Source of the DNA: a virus
DNA: 20,833 nt
Reading direction: 5' to 3' (one strand)
IMG/VR virus record: IMGVR_UViG_3300046733_000578
Span: 1 to 20,833 of that record
The notes beneath the pieces are model-generated. The model worked only from the letters and a program-made list of their open reading frames with translations, was not told the DNA's origin and made no database searches. Numbering within the stretch: the stretch's first letter is position 1; each line of letters starts with the position of its first letter. Shown piece by piece: positions 2,233 through 15,428 of this stretch. A program made the translations under genes and the position numbers.

Positions 2233-2552
2233 CTTTAACAGGTGCATCCCAAAACATGCCATTTAATGTAGATATGGCATTGAAAGCTCAACAATATGGG
2301 CATCCAAACGTTTATCCGAATTCTGAATACATAAAACCACCATTAGAAAAGAAAAAACTGAGAGTGGTTGACCCTGCAACTAGAACTGAAATCAGTATTC
2401 AGAGATTTAAAGATATGCAAGAAAGAGTCGATGAACTGAGAGAAACATTACAGACTAATAAAAATGGCTTGACATATGATCGGGTTTCTGGTAATATAGA
2501 GGTTAAATCAGAAAAGATAGATCAAGGTCAAGTTGTGGATATTAGTGTATGA
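2229..2552 (+). CDS. Unknown 107-residue protein between two methyltransferases
   Basis: I do not recognise this protein. It has a Pro/Asn/Tyr-rich N-terminal part (residues 10-40), a basic KKKLRVVDP stretch, and a predicted helix with heptad-like spacing around residues 58-80 (RFKDMQERVDELRETLQ). No signal peptide, membrane segment or catalytic motif is visible. Both ends are ATGA overlaps with the flanking methyltransferase genes, so it is translated as part of that chain and may be an accessory factor for one of them; that is inference from position only. The 3' third also holds a good sigma70-like promoter that could drive the next gene. Confidence 0.75.
   Translation: MTLTGASQNMPFNVDMALKAQQYGHPNVYPNSEYIKPPLEKKKLRVVDPATRTEISIQRFKDMQERVDELRETLQTNKNGLTYDRVSGNIEVKSEKIDQGQVVDISV
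2469..2497 (+). promoter_or_regulatory. Sigma70-like promoter inside the 107-residue gene, ahead of methyltransferase 2
   Basis: TTGACA (2469-2474), a 17-base spacer, then TAATAT (2492-2497, four of six matches to TATAAT). It is embedded in GGCTTGACAT, sharing GCTTGACAT with three intergenic promoters of this window. Transcription would start about 45 bases before the methyltransferase start at 2549. It lies within coding sequence, so chance is possible; the shared extended -35 box argues against it. Confidence 0.5.
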
Positions 2553-3880
2553 ATGAGCAAGAACAAGTATTATATAATTATTTAGAGCAGTGTAAGAATT
2601 CAGATGGATTACCAGTTTTTGACAATCCATTGTTTTCTCATCTTACAGGCGAGTATGGTAGAGAGATGTTTCGTAAAGTACTTGCGGAATATATTACAAC
2701 CGAAAAACCACCATTTCCGTTTAAAGAATTTAAATATGAAGATATGGTCAAATCTTTTAGAAAACTAAAAAAGACTGATTATTCCGATTATATCCAACCA
2801 CAAGACCAAGTACAAAAAGAAGTCATGGAAAAGTATGATGACTATAAGTATTCGTATGCAGATCATGGTTTGGGTATGGTTGATGTACCATCTACTTTCA
2901 ATGAAGTAAGTGATTATTTTCACAATAAAGGACGTATGGCCTGTGGGTCGTATGGGTTTACTTCTCCAGTTGATAGGTGGAACAGTGGAGACAACATTTG
3001 GGGTGTGCTAGGCCCCATCTGGCGCGGAGTAAACGATAGTTGGGAGTTGACACCCAAACAGTACTTAATGGCATTTAGACTTGGTACATACATTGCCACG
3101 CAGTTTAAACCCATGGTCGCAAAAGTGTTTTATGAAATGACTTCTGCGAAAAGAGTTCTTGATACATCAATGGGTTGGGGAGATAGACTTGCTGGTTTCT
3201 TTGGGTCTAATGCAACACATTATATTGGATGTGATCCAAATCCAAATACTTTTGCAATCTATAAAATACAGGCAGAAGAATATTCTAAATTGATTGGTAA
3301 TAAGTATACCATCACAGAGAAAGAAGATTATTTTGCATTGTATGGTGATAAAAAATCATGTGTATTTTATCGTAGTGGTGCAGAGAATTTACCATGGGAT
3401 GAAATAACAGATATTGATTGTGCATTTACATCACCACCATATTTTTCTACAGAAAGATATAATGAAGGTGGTGAACATTCCGAAGATCAATCTTGGTCTA
3501 AGTTTAATGAATACAATGCATGGAGAGATGAATTTTACTTACCAGTTTCTACAAATTCATATAATTCATTACGTGAAGGTGGACATATGATGGTTAATAT
3601 CATGGATCCGAAAATCAAAGGTAAAAGATATTATTCTGGTGATGAATTGGTCGACGAATTAAAAGATTCGTTTTTAGGACAAATTGGTATGCGAATCATG
3701 CAACGTCCACAGGGTAAAGCTGTCTTTTCTGATGAAAATGGTGACTTTGACAAAGAAAAAATGAATAATTTTATGAATAAACTTTACATGGAAAATGTGT
3801 GGACTTTTCGTAAGGGAAACAATGACTTAGACTTGTTTAGACACAAGAGAGTTGTAAGTTTGGATAGTTTCTTTTCATAA
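2549..3880 (+). CDS. DNA methyltransferase (TSPPY), gp43-like C-terminal tail
   Basis: Predicted SAM-dependent DNA methyltransferase of 443 residues. SAM-binding motif I is VLDTSMGWGD (D205-D212), followed by an acidic-loop motif CDPNP and a catalytic TSPPY (residues 294-298): motif I before motif IV, the reverse of the upstream methyltransferase. The first ~190 residues carry no motif I recognise and may hold target recognition or a partner interface. The last residues are VSLDSFFS, nearly identical to the end of this phage's gp43 (ITLDSFFN), whose T4 counterpart binds the sliding clamp. The start overlaps the previous stop (ATGA). No cognate nuclease is visible. The methylated base (N6-adenine or N4-cytosine) cannot be decided from the sequence alone. 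Confidence 0.85.
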   Translation: MNEQEQVLYNYLEQCKNSDGLPVFDNPLFSHLTGEYGREMFRKVLAEYITTEKPPFPFKEFKYEDMVKSFRKLKKTDYSDYIQPQDQVQKEVMEKYDDYKYSYADHGLGMVDVPSTFNEVSDYFHNKGRMACGSYGFTSPVDRWNSGDNIWGVLGPIWRGVNDSWELTPKQYLMAFRLGTYIATQFKPMVAKVFYEMTSAKRVLDTSMGWGDRLAGFFGSNATHYIGCDPNPNTFAIYKIQAEEYSKLIGNKYTITEKEDYFALYGDKKSCVFYRSGAENLPWDEITDIDCAFTSPPYFSTERYNEGGEHSEDQSWSKFNEYNAWRDEFYLPVSTNSYNSLREGGHMMVNIMDPKIKGKRYYSGDELVDELKDSFLGQIGMRIMQRPQGKAVFSDENGDFDKEKMNNFMNKLYMENVWTFRKGNNDLDLFRHKRVVSLDSFFS

Positions 3881-7429: not shown

Positions 7430-7726
7430 TTGATAGACTACAAATTTAATGAAGATGTGCTGCTGGATGAAATCCGGCAGTATATCGATAACACTTATAA
7501 AGGCCACTATTCAAAAACCACTTACCAATCGACCGAAGTTATTATGGGTCGAGGCCATGGTGAGGGTTTTTGTATGGGCAATATTGACAAGTATTCTAAT
7601 CGTTATGGAAAAAAAGGTGATGAAGATGATTGGAGAAAAGACTTGATTAAAATAGTTCACTATGGTATACTAGCACTATACAATCACGATATAACTTATG
7701 GAGACAATGAAAATGAAAATCAGTGA
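7430..7726 (+). CDS. Small protein with GNIDKYxxRxGKK motif (DUF3310-like)
   Basis: 98 residues. The core GNIDKYSNRYGKK (residues 50-62), followed by an acidic DEDDWRKDLIKIVHY stretch, resembles the 'GNxxKYxxRxGxK...DLxKAxxY' signature of DUF3310 proteins, which are common in phages and of unknown function. The start is TTG at 7430, chosen because AAGGAG (7418-7423) lies six bases upstream and no in-frame ATG precedes the conserved core closely enough. The 3' end overlaps the start of the sliding-clamp gene by 14 bases, and a possible promoter for that gene lies inside it. The family link rests on motif recall, not on a search. Confidence 0.7.
   Translation: MIDYKFNEDVLLDEIRQYIDNTYKGHYSKTTYQSTEVIMGRGHGEGFCMGNIDKYSNRYGKKGDEDDWRKDLIKIVHYGILALYNHDITYGDNENENQ
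7643..7671 (+). promoter_or_regulatory. Possible sigma70-like promoter ahead of gp45
   Basis: TTGATT (7643-7648), a 17-base spacer, TATACT (7666-7671, five of six). It lies within the preceding small gene and would start transcription about 35 bases before the gp45 start. The -35 box is weak and lacks the GCTTGACAT context of the other promoters. Confidence 0.4.
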
Positions 7727-8408
7727 ATCGACCCAACTAGTTTTGCGAAATTTCGCAAACATCAATCAATCGCTTTTGTTAAAGCCAGGAAACAGAATTA
7801 GTACAATGTCTGTTATGAGAAACATTCTTGCATCGGCAGATGTAGAAGAAACGTTTCCAGTAGAGTTTGGTATTTACGATTTACCTAGATTCTTGGGTAA
7901 CTTGTCTATATATCCAGAGTTGGAATTTAATGATAAGTATGTACTTATGTCAAACGGATCAAAAACATATAAATTTATGGCATCAGATCCATCTATCATT
8001 GTACATCCAACAACAACATTTGCGATGGATGATTCAGAACATAATGCACCAGATGCAAAAGAGGCCCCAGAGTATGATATTGATGTCACTCTTACTGGAC
8101 CTGCTTTGTCAACTATTGCAAAAGTTGCGTCAATAAACTCTTTACCAGATTATGCATTGATGACCGAGGATGGTGTAATTAACTTTGTTGCTCTGGATAA
8201 AAAATCTGATACATCTGATCTTGCGAAAGAACCTGTTGGTAAATCTGATGCAGATTTTAAAATGTTTTTCCGCGCTGAAAACTTGAAACTTGTAGAGGGT
8301 GATTACAATGTACGTGTATCACGCCATAAGATTTCTACTTTCCGCCATCAAACAAAGGCCCTGCAATATTGGGTAACTCTTGAACAGGATTCGGAGTACA
8401 ATGGGTAA
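7713..8408 (+). CDS. 45: gp45-like sliding clamp (DNA polymerase processivity factor)
   Basis: Trimeric ring that encircles DNA and tethers the polymerase; in T4 it also activates late transcription. The product is 231 residues, close to T4 gp45 (228). It has few sharp motifs; the assignment rests on length, the N-terminal KISESTQLVLRNFANINQS and VEFGIYDLPRFLG stretches that match the phage clamp pattern, and position directly before the clamp loader. Of three in-frame ATGs (7698, 7707, 7713) I chose 7713 because GGAG (7700-7703) is nine bases upstream. The stop overlaps the gp44 start (TAATG). If the C-terminal tails noted on gp43, the two methyltransferases and the HNH-like protein are clamp-binding peptides, this is their partner. 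Confidence 0.9.
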   Translation: MKISESTQLVLRNFANINQSLLLKPGNRISTMSVMRNILASADVEETFPVEFGIYDLPRFLGNLSIYPELEFNDKYVLMSNGSKTYKFMASDPSIIVHPTTTFAMDDSEHNAPDAKEAPEYDIDVTLTGPALSTIAKVASINSLPDYALMTEDGVINFVALDKKSDTSDLAKEPVGKSDADFKMFFRAENLKLVEGDYNVRVSRHKISTFRHQTKALQYWVTLEQDSEYNG

Positions 8409-9346
8409 TGAAAGAACAATTCCTATGGGTCGAGAAATATCGGCCACAATCTATTGATGATTGTATTCTGCCAGAAGAATTAAAAGATACATTCAAAGAG
8501 TTTGTGGATAATAAAGACTTGCCTAACCTGTTATTGACAGGTGGGCCCGGCGTAGGTAAAACTACAGTTGCAAAGGCTCTGTGTCTAGAAATGGGCATGG
8601 ATCATCTTCTAATAAATGGTTCGGAGGAGGGTGGTATTGATACCCTCCGAAATACTATTAGAAATTACGCATCCACTGTGAGTTTTTCGAGTCAGGGTAA
8701 AGTTGTGATTCTAGATGAGGCGGATTATCTTAATCCACAGTCTACACAGCCTGCATTGCGTGGTTTCATTGAAGAATTTGCAGGCAACTGTAGATTTATT
8801 TTGACTTGTAATTTCAAAAACCGCATAATCGAACCGTTGCACTCACGATGTTCTGTAATTGAATTTAAAATAAAAAAATCTGATAAACCCAGACTTGCTG
8901 CAAGTTTTGGTAAAAGGGTTTGTGGTATTTTGGATGATGAGAACATTAAATACCAAAAAAGTGTAGTTGGTCAGGTAATGATGAAATACTTTCCTGATTG
9001 GAGAAGGGTATTAAACGAACTACAACGTTATTCTGTTGGTGGTACAATTGATTCTGGTATTTTTGAAAATCTTGGTGAGATATCTTTAGACAGTCTGGCA
9101 AATTCACTCAAAAATAGAGACTTTACTGAAATGCGTAAATGGGTTGCAGAAAACTCTGACAACGACCCAAATCAACTTTTTAGAAAGATTTATGATGGCA
9201 TGTATGACTACCTTGAACCAAATTCGATTCCAGATGCAGTACTTATTATTGCACAATATCAATATCAATCTGGATTTGTTGCAAATACTGATATTAATCT
9301 TGTTGCATGTCTTACAGAGATGATGGTTAGTTGTCAGTGGAAATAA
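8408..9346 (+). CDS. 44: gp44-like clamp loader ATPase subunit
   Basis: AAA+ ATPase of 312 residues that with gp62 opens gp45 and loads it at primer ends. It starts with the WVEKYRP motif typical of clamp loaders, then Walker A GGPGVGKT (residues 45-52), Walker B ILDEAD (D103-D106), and the SRC arginine finger (S146, R147, C148). Length matches T4 gp44 (319). The start codon overlaps the gp45 stop. In T4 genes 44 and 62 are adjacent and translationally coupled; here an HNH-like gene separates them. Confidence 0.95.
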   Translation: MKEQFLWVEKYRPQSIDDCILPEELKDTFKEFVDNKDLPNLLLTGGPGVGKTTVAKALCLEMGMDHLLINGSEEGGIDTLRNTIRNYASTVSFSSQGKVVILDEADYLNPQSTQPALRGFIEEFAGNCRFILTCNFKNRIIEPLHSRCSVIEFKIKKSDKPRLAASFGKRVCGILDDENIKYQKSVVGQVMMKYFPDWRRVLNELQRYSVGGTIDSGIFENLGEISLDSLANSLKNRDFTEMRKWVAENSDNDPNQLFRKIYDGMYDYLEPNSIPDAVLIIAQYQYQSGFVANTDINLVACLTEMMVSCQWK

Positions 9347-9349
9347 CAA

Positions 9350-9814
9350 ATGTCAAAAAAACATTTCAAAAAACTTCTTAAAAATGTAGATTTTTCTGCA
9401 AACTATGGCGCAGCCGGAGGGAGAACTTTTACTCTACTGCGCGATGCTGGATACACTGAAAACCAAATTTCTAATAAATTTAATGGTCACGATAATAGTA
9501 TCAGCTGGGAAGATTTGAGAGATATTTTTGAATTTCAAAATAGATTGTGTTATTATCTTTCTTGGAAAATAGATTTAGATGAATTGTATGTACCATATTC
9601 TCCCTTTGCCCCTTCGGTAGATAGAATTGATAATTCTAAAGGATATGATTTAGATAATATTGTTATATGTACTAGATTTGCAAACTTGGGAATGAGTGCA
9701 TACAACCATCCTAATTTCAGAGAAAGATTGCAGTATGAAATGGATAATAGAGAAAACATATTTGTTGAAAGATACAAAAAGCAACCAAAGTTTGGATTGG
9801 ACAATTTTTTATGA
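9350..9814 (+). CDS. HNH-like nuclease inserted between gp44 and gp62 genes
   Basis: 154 residues. The segment SVDRIDNSKGYDLDNIVICTRF (S89 onward; D91, R92, D94, G98, Y99, N103) matches the 'SxDRIDxxxGYxxxN' core of HNH/homing-type nucleases, with a following asparagine N95 and a later N109-like position in FANLGMS. The canonical first His is replaced, as in some phage members, so activity is uncertain. The N-terminal part is basic. Its position between two genes whose products form one complex is typical of a free-standing homing endonuclease, but it is ATGA-coupled to gp62 and ends FGLDNFL, resembling the gp43 clamp-binding tail, which suggests integration into the replication apparatus. 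Alternatives: a repair or structure-specific nuclease. Confidence 0.6.
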   Translation: MSKKHFKKLLKNVDFSANYGAAGGRTFTLLRDAGYTENQISNKFNGHDNSISWEDLRDIFEFQNRLCYYLSWKIDLDELYVPYSPFAPSVDRIDNSKGYDLDNIVICTRFANLGMSAYNHPNFRERLQYEMDNRENIFVERYKKQPKFGLDNFL

Positions 9815-10197
9815 GTTATGATTTATTTAAAGACTATATCCCAGCAATATCAAACACTAAATTAGATTTAATGAATAGTGGTGATGAACTGTGGGAAAAA
9901 AATTATCCAGCATTTATGGTAAATAAAACATTTTCACATTTTCAAGATACAATTTTATATGCACAGGAGATGAATCGACGCCCCCACCTAGACAATAAGC
10001 TTCAGTTTGACTATTTACTAAATACAATTAGACCGATGAAAAGATTTTCAAGATGGCCTAAAAAGATTGCTCATGATGATTTAGAATATGTTAAAGAATA
10101 TTATGGGTATAATGATGTAAGAGCTGAAGAGGCTCTTAGTTTACTTAATGATGAACAAATAAAAATAATAAAACAAAAGTTGAACAAAGGTGGATAG
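9811..10197 (+). CDS. 62: gp62-like clamp loader small subunit
   Basis: 128-residue non-ATPase partner of gp44 in the clamp loader. Recognised from the pattern seen in marine T4-like phages: N-terminal LFKDYIPAISNTK, a central NKTFSHFQDTILYAQEMNRR and LQFDYLLNTIRPMKRFSRW, then EYYGYNDVRAEEAL. It is shorter than T4 gp62 (187), as is usual in marine relatives. The start overlaps the previous stop (ATGA), with no clear ribosome binding site of its own, so translation probably depends on the upstream gene. It lies directly before regA, as in T4. Confidence 0.85.
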   Translation: MSYDLFKDYIPAISNTKLDLMNSGDELWEKNYPAFMVNKTFSHFQDTILYAQEMNRRPHLDNKLQFDYLLNTIRPMKRFSRWPKKIAHDDLEYVKEYYGYNDVRAEEALSLLNDEQIKIIKQKLNKGG

Positions 10198-12890: not shown

Positions 12891-15428
12891 ATGCGTTTTT
12901 ATACAAATGTACAATGTGTCGGTAATAAAATATTCCTCAGAGAATACGACAATGGAAAGCGTAGGGAAGTAAAACTAGATTACTCTCCTACTCTTTTTGT
13001 ATCTGGTGGTAGTGGTAAATCCAAATATAAAACTTTGCATGGAGAAAGTGTTGAGCCTATTAGACATGGTTCAATACGTGATGCAAGAGAATTTATCAAA
13101 AAGTATGACGATATAGAAAATATGAAAATCTATGGTCATACACAATTCATCTATCCATTTATTGGTGATGAGTATCCAAGTGAAATTCAGTATGATGAAT
13201 CAAAGATAAACATTTGCAATATCGATATCGAAGTTGAGTGCGAAAATGGTTTTCCAGAACCAACTCTTGCAAACGAAATTGTTAACGCAATCACAATGAA
13301 AATGAAAGATCAATATATTGTTCTTGGATTGGGTGATTGGGAAAACAAAAGTCCAGAAACACAACATCTTAAAATTAAATACTATAAGTTTACTGATGAA
13401 CTTGCACTCTTGCGTAGTTTTTTGGAAATTTGGACACATGCAAAAATCGATATTGTTACTGGTTGGAATGTGAACCAGTTTGATATGACGTATCTTGTCA
13501 ATCGTATTGGTAAAACTCTTGGTGATGATGAAGTCAAAAGATTGTCCACATGGGGGATTGTCAGGAAAATAGAAAAGAATATTCGTGGTCAGATGCAGAC
13601 ACAAGTACAGATCAGTGGATTATCTATTATTGATTATCTTGATTTGTACAAAAAGTTTACATATGTAACTAGAGAAACGTATAGACTAGACCATATTGCA
13701 TATGTCGAGTTGGGTCGGAAAAAACTTGACCACTCTGAATTTGCAAATATGCATTTATTCTATAAACAAGATTATCAAAAGTTTATTGATTATAACATTA
13801 TCGACGTTGAGTTGGTCGATAAACTTGAAGATAAACTTAAACTAATGGAATTACTTATTACCATTGCATATCAGTCTAAAGTAAATTATGACGAAGTATT
13901 CTCACCTATTAAGGTGTGGGATTCCATTGCATTTCATGAATTGCGTAGAAGTAAAACTGTAATTCCGCCTCGTAATAATAATACTAAATCGGAAGCTTAT
14001 GAGGGTGCATATGTAAAAGACCCAACTGTTGGTAAACATGAATGGGTTATGTCATTTGATTTAAACAGTTTGTATCCACACTTAATTATGCAGTATAATA
14101 TTTCACCAGAAACATTGTATGACAAAGAAAGAGTCAACACATCTGTTGAGAAACTATTGAATCAAGAAACGGATTTATCTAGTTTGCAGCGCAGTAATAT
14201 GACTGTGTGTCCAAGTGGGGTTCTTTTCAATAAAGATAAACGTGGGTTTCTGCCCAAGTTGATGCAAAGTATGTATGATGATCGTACTACATATAAGAAG
14301 TTGATGTTAAAGACCAAACAAGATAAGATTGATGGTAAGGGCGACCCTGTTGAATTGGACAAGAAGATTGCTCAGTTAAACAACAAACAAATGGCCGCAA
14401 AGATTTTGTTAAACTCTGCTTATGGTGCTTTGGGAAATCAGTACTTTAGATACTTTGATATCAGACAGGCAGAATCTATCACTTTGTCTGGACAACTTTC
14501 AATTCGATGGATCGAAGAGAAAGTAAATATATACATGAATAAAATTTTAAAAAACGATGAGGATAAAAATTATGTCATTGCAAGCGATACGGATTCAATT
14601 TACGTTGCTCTTGGTGACTTGGTTGACAAGTTTGTTAAAATCAAGGAAGGTGAGTCAAAATCAGAAGAAACACGAAGGAAAGTTGACTTTCTTGATAAGG
14701 TTGCCCAAGAGAAGTTTGAACCATATATCGATAAGTGTTATCAAGATCTTGCTACGTATGTAAATGCATACGACCAGAAGATGCAGATGGCCAGAGAGGT
14801 TATTGCCGATAGTGGTATCTGGACTGCAAAGAAAAGATACATTCTCAATGTTTGGGATAACGAAGGTGTTAGATATAAATCACCAGAACTTAAAATCATG
14901 GGTTTGGAGGCAGTTCGTTCATCAACACCAGAATCTTGTAGAAATATGATTAAGAAATCACTTGAACTTATTCTGCGTAGTAACAACGATAGTTTGATTG
15001 AATTTATTGAACAGTTTAGACAAGATTTCAAAACATATGAAGTTGATGATGTTGCATTTCCTAGAAGTGTAAATGGACTTACTAAATATCATGACCCCGT
15101 TCTCACATACAAAAAAGGTACACCAATTCATGTAAAGGGTGTATTATTCTACAACCAACTAGTCAAAAAACATAAACTAGAAATGCAGTATCCGCCTATA
15201 AAAGACGGTGAAAAAATTAAGTTTTGTTATCTAAAAGAACCAAACCCATTGCAAAATAATACTATTGCAATTGCGGCCGGTACATTACCCAAAGAATTTG
15301 AGTTGGATAAGTTTCTTGATTATGATACACAATTCGAAAAGGCATATCTCGAACCAATTAAAACTATTGCGGAAACAATTGGTTGGGAAATAGAAAAGAA
15401 AATAACATTAGACAGTTTTTTTAATTAG
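12891..15428 (+). CDS. 43: gp43-like family B DNA polymerase
   Basis: Replicative polymerase of 845 residues with intact proofreading and polymerase sites. Exonuclease: Exo I DIE (D112, E114), Exo II NVNQFD (N193-D198), Exo III YNIID (Y301, D305). Polymerase: motif A DLNSLYP (D390-P396), motif B KILLNSAYG (K504-G512), motif C DTDS (D566-S569), thumb KKRY (K647-Y650). The C-terminus ITLDSFFN corresponds to the T4 gp43 tail that binds gp45. It is slightly shorter than T4 gp43 (898). The gene is uninterrupted, with no intron or split as seen in some relatives. It has its own promoter and a weak GGTGG ribosome binding site. Confidence 0.98.
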   Translation: MRFYTNVQCVGNKIFLREYDNGKRREVKLDYSPTLFVSGGSGKSKYKTLHGESVEPIRHGSIRDAREFIKKYDDIENMKIYGHTQFIYPFIGDEYPSEIQYDESKINICNIDIEVECENGFPEPTLANEIVNAITMKMKDQYIVLGLGDWENKSPETQHLKIKYYKFTDELALLRSFLEIWTHAKIDIVTGWNVNQFDMTYLVNRIGKTLGDDEVKRLSTWGIVRKIEKNIRGQMQTQVQISGLSIIDYLDLYKKFTYVTRETYRLDHIAYVELGRKKLDHSEFANMHLFYKQDYQKFIDYNIIDVELVDKLEDKLKLMELLITIAYQSKVNYDEVFSPIKVWDSIAFHELRRSKTVIPPRNNNTKSEAYEGAYVKDPTVGKHEWVMSFDLNSLYPHLIMQYNISPETLYDKERVNTSVEKLLNQETDLSSLQRSNMTVCPSGVLFNKDKRGFLPKLMQSMYDDRTTYKKLMLKTKQDKIDGKGDPVELDKKIAQLNNKQMAAKILLNSAYGALGNQYFRYFDIRQAESITLSGQLSIRWIEEKVNIYMNKILKNDEDKNYVIASDTDSIYVALGDLVDKFVKIKEGESKSEETRRKVDFLDKVAQEKFEPYIDKCYQDLATYVNAYDQKMQMAREVIADSGIWTAKKRYILNVWDNEGVRYKSPELKIMGLEAVRSSTPESCRNMIKKSLELILRSNNDSLIEFIEQFRQDFKTYEVDDVAFPRSVNGLTKYHDPVLTYKKGTPIHVKGVLFYNQLVKKHKLEMQYPPIKDGEKIKFCYLKEPNPLQNNTIAIAAGTLPKEFELDKFLDYDTQFEKAYLEPIKTIAETIGWEIEKKITLDSFFN

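Follow-up and report, generated by a model that had tools for sequence, protein, structure and literature searches.

Why should a methyltransferase of a T4-like phage end in the same residues as the phage's DNA polymerase? Both proteins are encoded in the window analyzed here, a 20.8-kb stretch of DNA that is a piece of the record of an uncultured, marine T4-like virus. The window contains genes for gp46, two amino-methyltransferases (MT1 and MT2), cobT/cobS-like proteins, gp45, gp44, an endonuclease VII-like protein, gp62, regA, gp43, uvsX and gp41; all window features located below lie on the + strand. The MT2 gene (2549–3880; 443 amino acids) closes with codons for VVSLDSFFS (3851–3877) followed by the stop codon (3878–3880), and the clamp-type tail proper, SLDSFFS, is encoded at 3857–3877. 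The family-B DNA polymerase gp43 (12891–15428; matched by phrog_262 across residues 1–845) ends in KITLDSFFN; ITLDSFFN is encoded by 15402–15425, and the clamp-binding tail TLDSFFN within it (15405–15425) matches in position the T4 gp43 tail, KASLDFLFG. Reading both open reading frames confirmed the observation of the initial annotation that the two proteins share a C-terminal tail (VSLDSFFS and ITLDSFFN). Three of the five codons for the shared LDSFF differ synonymously (TTG GAT AGT TTC TTT in MT2; TTA GAC AGT TTT TTT in gp43).

The enzyme bearing this tail was matched to PF01555 (N6_N4_Mtase) above the Pfam cut-off (E value 2.4e-6; 28.1 bits over residues 289–379, with a curated cut-off of 26.7). 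Motif I (DTSMGWGDRLAGF, residues 205–217) precedes motif IV (TSPPY, residues 294–298), and both the SAM motif DTSxGWGDR and TSPPY were invariant among 34 homologues. The AF2 model of MT2 has a confident fold (mean pLDDT 87.5). Because Foldseek searches with this model matched only generic Rossmann SAM methyltransferases, including RNA and small-molecule enzymes, the DNA substrate and the modified base are assigned here from the family; a search of solved structures by sequence gave no match. On this basis, MT2 is probably an N4-cytosine/N6-adenine-type DNA methyltransferase. No cultured MT2 relatives with an intact C-terminus were found, and homologues from a Vibrio phage and a Bacteroides phage (24–31% identity) end without the motif.

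In T4, gp43, gp55, gp33 and DNA ligase bind the sliding clamp gp45 through sliding-clamp-binding motifs (SCBMs) (PMC2988020, PMC7892883; PDB 6DRT, 1B8H), and those of gp43, gp55 and gp33 are experimentally interchangeable (PMC2988020). The related tails that the initial annotation had mentioned for the latter three proteins were verified as SLDFLFG, SLDFLYEAND and TLDFLL, respectively. Like the MT2 tail, these motifs are hydrophobic and acidic, place two hydrophobic residues after Leu-Asp/Glu and occupy a flexible end, which is C-terminal in gp43, gp55 and gp33. The end of MT2, SLDSFFS, has the T4-type arrangement of a C-terminal L-[DE]-x-[FL]-[FLY]-like core. It differs in its carrier, a methyltransferase, and in having FF rather than FLF, and its binding to the clamp is predicted from this likeness. 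A gp45-type clamp gene (7698–8408; phrog_223, E value 2.3e-59) is present on the same phage, and its product is the presumed partner of the MT2 tail. The best Foldseek matches of the gp45 model (AF2 pLDDT 93.3) were 6DRT (T4 gp45 with a ligase peptide), 1CZD and 1B77, with a TM score of 0.84; the fold is that of T4/RB69 gp45, whose structures were determined together with ligase and polymerase peptides. The large clamp loader subunit gp44 (8408–9346) was assigned from its phmmer family, which has members in loci with gp45, gp62 and gp43, and from the T4-like gene order, and the small subunit gp62 (9811–10197) was assigned by PF16790 (E value 1.4e-10) and phrog_225.

The frequency of such ends was compared with chance. 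With a looser motif pattern, gp43-type ends were found in 4 of the 25 window proteins (MT1, MT2, the endonuclease VII-like protein and gp43) versus 0.022 expected from shuffled proteins. Under a strict pattern ([STGNR][LM][DE]x(F/L/M)(F/L/M) plus 0–3 residues), 104 were seen among 1,210 unique neighbouring phage proteins from related contigs, nearly all of them gp43 and MT2, compared with 0.39 expected from shuffled C-termini or 0.30 from internal cut-points of the same proteins. The motif is short, its regular expressions were drawn up after the first tails had been seen and the counted sequences are related; P values are overstated for these reasons and should be taken as indicative only.

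Conservation of the tail was then assessed in 80 IMG/VR loci, which gave 60 usable rows of MT2 homologues from uncultured phages. The pattern L[DE]x[FLM][FLM] plus 0–2 residues forms the C-terminal end in 46 of these, at identities of about 50–79%. Twelve of the other 14 end in LPI, one ends in ATLF and one lies on a frameshifted contig (L067) whose other frame codes for SSTLEEFLS. Absence of the tail from related phages had been named in advance as the outcome that would count against a clamp tether; instead, 46 of 60 had the gp43-type end and 12 of 60 a gp33-type end. The accompanying expectation, that the tail would be kept while adjacent residues drift, also held: the L, F and F positions varied by 0, 0.34 and 0.84 bits, respectively, as opposed to 2.06 and 2.24 bits at the positions directly before. 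Among 48 unique motif-bearing MT2 proteins, the Leu was invariant but written with five codons (TTG, TTA, CTT, CTA and CTG), and when each MT2 was compared with the gp43 of its own contig, 58 of 112 amino-acid-identical codon pairs differed synonymously. This free codon use, together with the synonymous differences between MT2 and gp43, argues for selection on the tail at the protein level; recent copying or gene conversion from gp43 as the source of the tail was ruled out by the codons. In one lineage, LF replaces FF in both proteins (gp43 LEALFG and MT2 LEGLFG). A third type of MT2 end, RATLF, occurs in three sequences (L060:8197–9516, L310 and L311) and fits neither clamp-tail type.

Duplication or gene conversion of the gp43 3′ end could have left the tail as a relic of gene adjacency, with no clamp function. 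MT2 does directly follow gp43 in most relatives with a 4-base overlap (for example, gp43 at 497–2971 and MT2 at 2968–4227 of contig L009). On two contigs, a third gene lying between gp43 and MT2 also ends in this way, so that three consecutive genes have the same kind of end: an 83-residue protein ending in TTLEDFFS (L015:3887–4138) and an HNH endonuclease ending in GTLEGFFG (L020:794–1186). Against this, the motif persists under the codon drift described above, the window MT2 keeps its tail 9 kb away from gp43, the clade without the motif has acquired a gp33-type end even though MT2 and gp33 are not neighbours on the contigs seen, and Mom-family proteins and a second methyltransferase family bear the tail away from gp43. 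A relic of adjacency is thus a very improbable account of the tail; copying from gp43 could be how the MT2 tail originated, but not why it has been maintained.

The MT2 clade lacking the gp43-type motif ends in (A)TLPI or SVLPI, that is, it keeps ATL or SVL and then has PI. Frameshift or sequencing error was rejected as the cause of these ends, as 12 unique sequences agree and TLxxFF could not be recovered in any of their frames; L067 alone carries a frameshift. When the tree was computed with the tail removed, the LPI sequences fell within the gp43-type family as a single change. The same end was found on the late-transcription coactivator gp33, which in a related 66.6-kb contig ends in VATLPI and in the cultured pelagiphage HTVC008M ends in TATLPV. 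LP[IVL] ends 86 of 87 marine T4-like gp33 open reading frames (L216:47004–47213 is an example of such a gene), including those of cyanophages with unlike preceding residues. T4 gp33 holds gp45 by its C-terminus (PMC2988020), and from its position the marine LP[IVL] end is likely a divergent clamp-binding end. The simplest reading is that the LPI clade has not lost its clamp tail but appears to have exchanged a gp43-type for a gp33-type one. One protein of the second methyltransferase family (L333) terminates in EQTLPM, possibly a gp33-type tail on another enzyme.

Alternatively, the tail could bind some other replisome or late-transcription partner common to gp43 and gp33, such as the single-stranded DNA-binding protein gp32 or a host factor. 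The case for gp45 rests on sequence resemblance, and the near-invariant marine gp33 end LP[IVL] is unlike TLDFLL of T4 gp33, both of which leave room for such a partner. However, the C-terminal motif of T4 gp43, gp55 and gp33 is an experimentally established and interchangeable gp45 ligand (PMC2988020; PMC7892883), and gp45 is the known partner that these three proteins have in common. We therefore give a partner other than gp45 only a slight chance and retain gp45 as the probable target.

The predicted structure of MT2 bears on whether the tail belongs to the enzyme itself. In the AF2 model, the tail lies past the last strand (residues 411–421), pLDDT falls to about 65 and further to 49 at the end, with LDSFF as a short helix, as a free short linear motif would show. 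The C-terminus is accordingly modelled as a flexible, exposed end outside the fold. If it instead belonged to the methyltransferase fold or made a dimer contact, its likeness to gp43 would be convergent and imply no shared function; the nearby upstream residues D428 and F430 do not vary, so part of the C-terminal arm is kept for its own reasons. But the model has low confidence beyond residue 430 and no packing strand, a whole clade swaps the last residues for LPI while its core is still conserved, and the tail is missing from distant paralogues that share the fold. A structural role for these residues is, on this evidence, highly unlikely, and a clamp-binding role is again preferred.

Two further window tails had been missed in the initial annotation. 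The endonuclease VII/HNH-like protein encoded between gp44 and gp62 (9350–9814; phrog_3322 endonuclease, E value 9.9e-16; phrog_1035 endonuclease VII, E value 7e-11) ends in FGLDNFL, of which the clamp-type GLDNFL (9794–9811) forms the end of the open reading frame; a search for divergent homologues with a C-terminus found only identical copies or fragments. MT1 (1585–2232; PF01555, E value 8.8e-25), the second amino-methyltransferase, in which motif IV (TSPPD) comes first and motif I last, ends in TRMDQFL. Its final RMDQFL (2212–2229) is a weak candidate clamp tail, and MT1 is retained only as a possible clamp client, since most homologues do not conserve the tail. The catalytic motif of MT1 is TSPPD rather than TSPPY, with the D retained in homologues down to ~42% identity, which suggests an altered chemistry or base.

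The C-termini of proteins other than gp43, MT2 and the second methyltransferase family were surveyed with the looser pattern, which matched 16 proteins versus 2.9 expected. These included the late sigma factor gp55 (KGLEKFME), an HNH endonuclease (GTLEGFFG) and one further copy of the gp43 end. Several were DNA-modification proteins: two of the Mom family (GTLEAFL and GSLEAFL), a beta-architecture methyltransferase (TLDEFLIT) and a TAGT glycosyltransferase (NTLENFLND). Two of the window's own proteins (the endonuclease VII-like protein and MT1) were also matched, as were two small proteins with no assignment and some open reading frames that were either spurious or for the baseplate hub. The hub protein gp26 fits the loose pattern with LEGMQSFLG, a match attributed to chance. 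In the second methyltransferase family, the tail was present in 26 of 37 T4-like contigs versus 0 of 22 others, and in the Mom family in 15 of 35 versus 0 of 13, where T4-like context was defined by at least two matches to the HTVC008M proteome, a rule loose enough to let in some phages that probably fall outside the T4-like group. Several of the T4-like misses are near variants (TLEAFI). Among HTVC008M proteins checked beyond gp43, gp55 and gp33, no convincing tails were found.

Mom-family tails in T4-like contigs include TLEAFL, SLEAFL and TLEGFF (L145:1883–2773, L159:2924–3751 and L396:4004–4813). The last of these contigs is the cultured Methylophilales phage Melnitz (EXVC044M), whose Mom-family protein (QZI94857) ends in GTATLEGFF. 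On contig L077 (49–3045), MT2 (TLEEFLS), an MT1-like methyltransferase (TDLTNMFDV) and a TAGT-family glycosyltransferase (NTLENFLND) are clustered before uvsX, a possible clamp-tethered modification operon. Some non-T4 homologues of the modification enzymes end in QMDLF, QNDLF, QLKLF or QMELF, resembling the bacterial beta-clamp consensus QL(S/D)LF; examples are QMDLFKGYEV (L193:8001–9272), QNDLFNF (L137:550–1878) and QMELFI (L349:6973–7800). These ends possibly tether their carriers to the host clamp.

The clamp-tether reading of the MT2 tail is supported by comparison with homologues, gp43 and gp33. Four things are read directly from the sequences: the tail itself, its conservation, the gp33-type end that one clade has in its place, and tails of this kind on T4-like modification enzymes unrelated to MT2. 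From these, MT2 is likely tethered to the phage gp45 by a gp43-type C-terminal SCBM (S/T-L-D/E-x-F-F). Docking of the disordered tail in the hydrophobic pocket of gp45 would let MT2 ride on freshly loaded clamps, prefer clamp-loaded DNA over DNA without clamps and methylate nascent phage DNA ahead of host restriction. The clamp gp45 also tracks DNA in late transcription, away from forks. Methylation just behind the fork, as proposed in the initial annotation, is an inference, as are the binding to gp45, the DNA substrate and the benefit of the tether.

Precedents for parts of this scheme exist. T4 alpha-glucosyltransferase (alpha-GT) binds gp45 (Sommer 2004, as cited in PMC13216743), an association confirmed by pull-down (PMC13216743). 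Like the proposed MT2, it is a phage DNA-modification enzyme that associates with the sliding clamp, and its action has been suggested to accompany replication; unlike MT2, it is a glucosyltransferase, and its C-terminus, CFKEQFDIITK, lacks the gp43-type motif. The dominance of alpha-GT is attributed mainly to expression rather than clamp contact (PMC13216743); since expression mostly set its level of modification, a tether on MT2 could have only a modest effect. The cellular parallel is human DNMT1, a DNA methyltransferase that is brought to the clamp PCNA so that newly made DNA is methylated (PMC9690074). It modifies cytosine at position 5 and reaches PCNA, its partner, through a PCNA-binding motif; the proteins are unrelated and share the logic alone. 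The plasmid methyltransferases M.EcoGIX and M.BceJIII associate with DNA polymerase I (PMC7736820) and are thus coupled to replication through a polymerase, yet they have no described clamp motif, are single-strand specific and use a host polymerase. Counting against the tether are the RATLF ends, which match neither motif, and T4 Dam: this classical phage methyltransferase, like MT2 a DNA amino-methyltransferase from a T4-like phage, ends in DEVYIFN, without a clamp motif. In line with the initial annotation, no description of a clamp-tethered phage methyltransferase was found in the open-licence literature, a scope in which absence is weak evidence, but alpha-GT is already a clamp-associated phage DNA-modifying enzyme. 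What appears to be new is the clamp-tailed methyltransferase and the generality of the pattern.

Together, these comparisons suggest that in T4-like viruses of this kind, enzymes that modify DNA are coupled to the replication machinery and mark new viral DNA during its synthesis. With less assurance, we consider it fairly probable that marine T4-like phages have repeatedly given unrelated modification enzymes (two methyltransferase architectures, Mom-type proteins and a TAGT glycosyltransferase) and nucleases tails for their own clamp, with some lineages swapping gp43-type for gp33-type ends and some homologues in other phages having host beta-clamp-like ends (QMDLF, QMELF and QNDLF), and that replication-coupled modification is a general phage strategy. 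Exchange of tails between lineages, matched to the phage's replication clamp, would offer a route to find clamp clients from sequence. The trait amounts to seven residues in MT2, and Melnitz, a cultured phage with a tailed Mom-family protein, makes the idea testable now. If true, the clamp tether would offer a simple explanation of how newly made phage DNA is marked ahead of restriction while host DNA is left unmarked.
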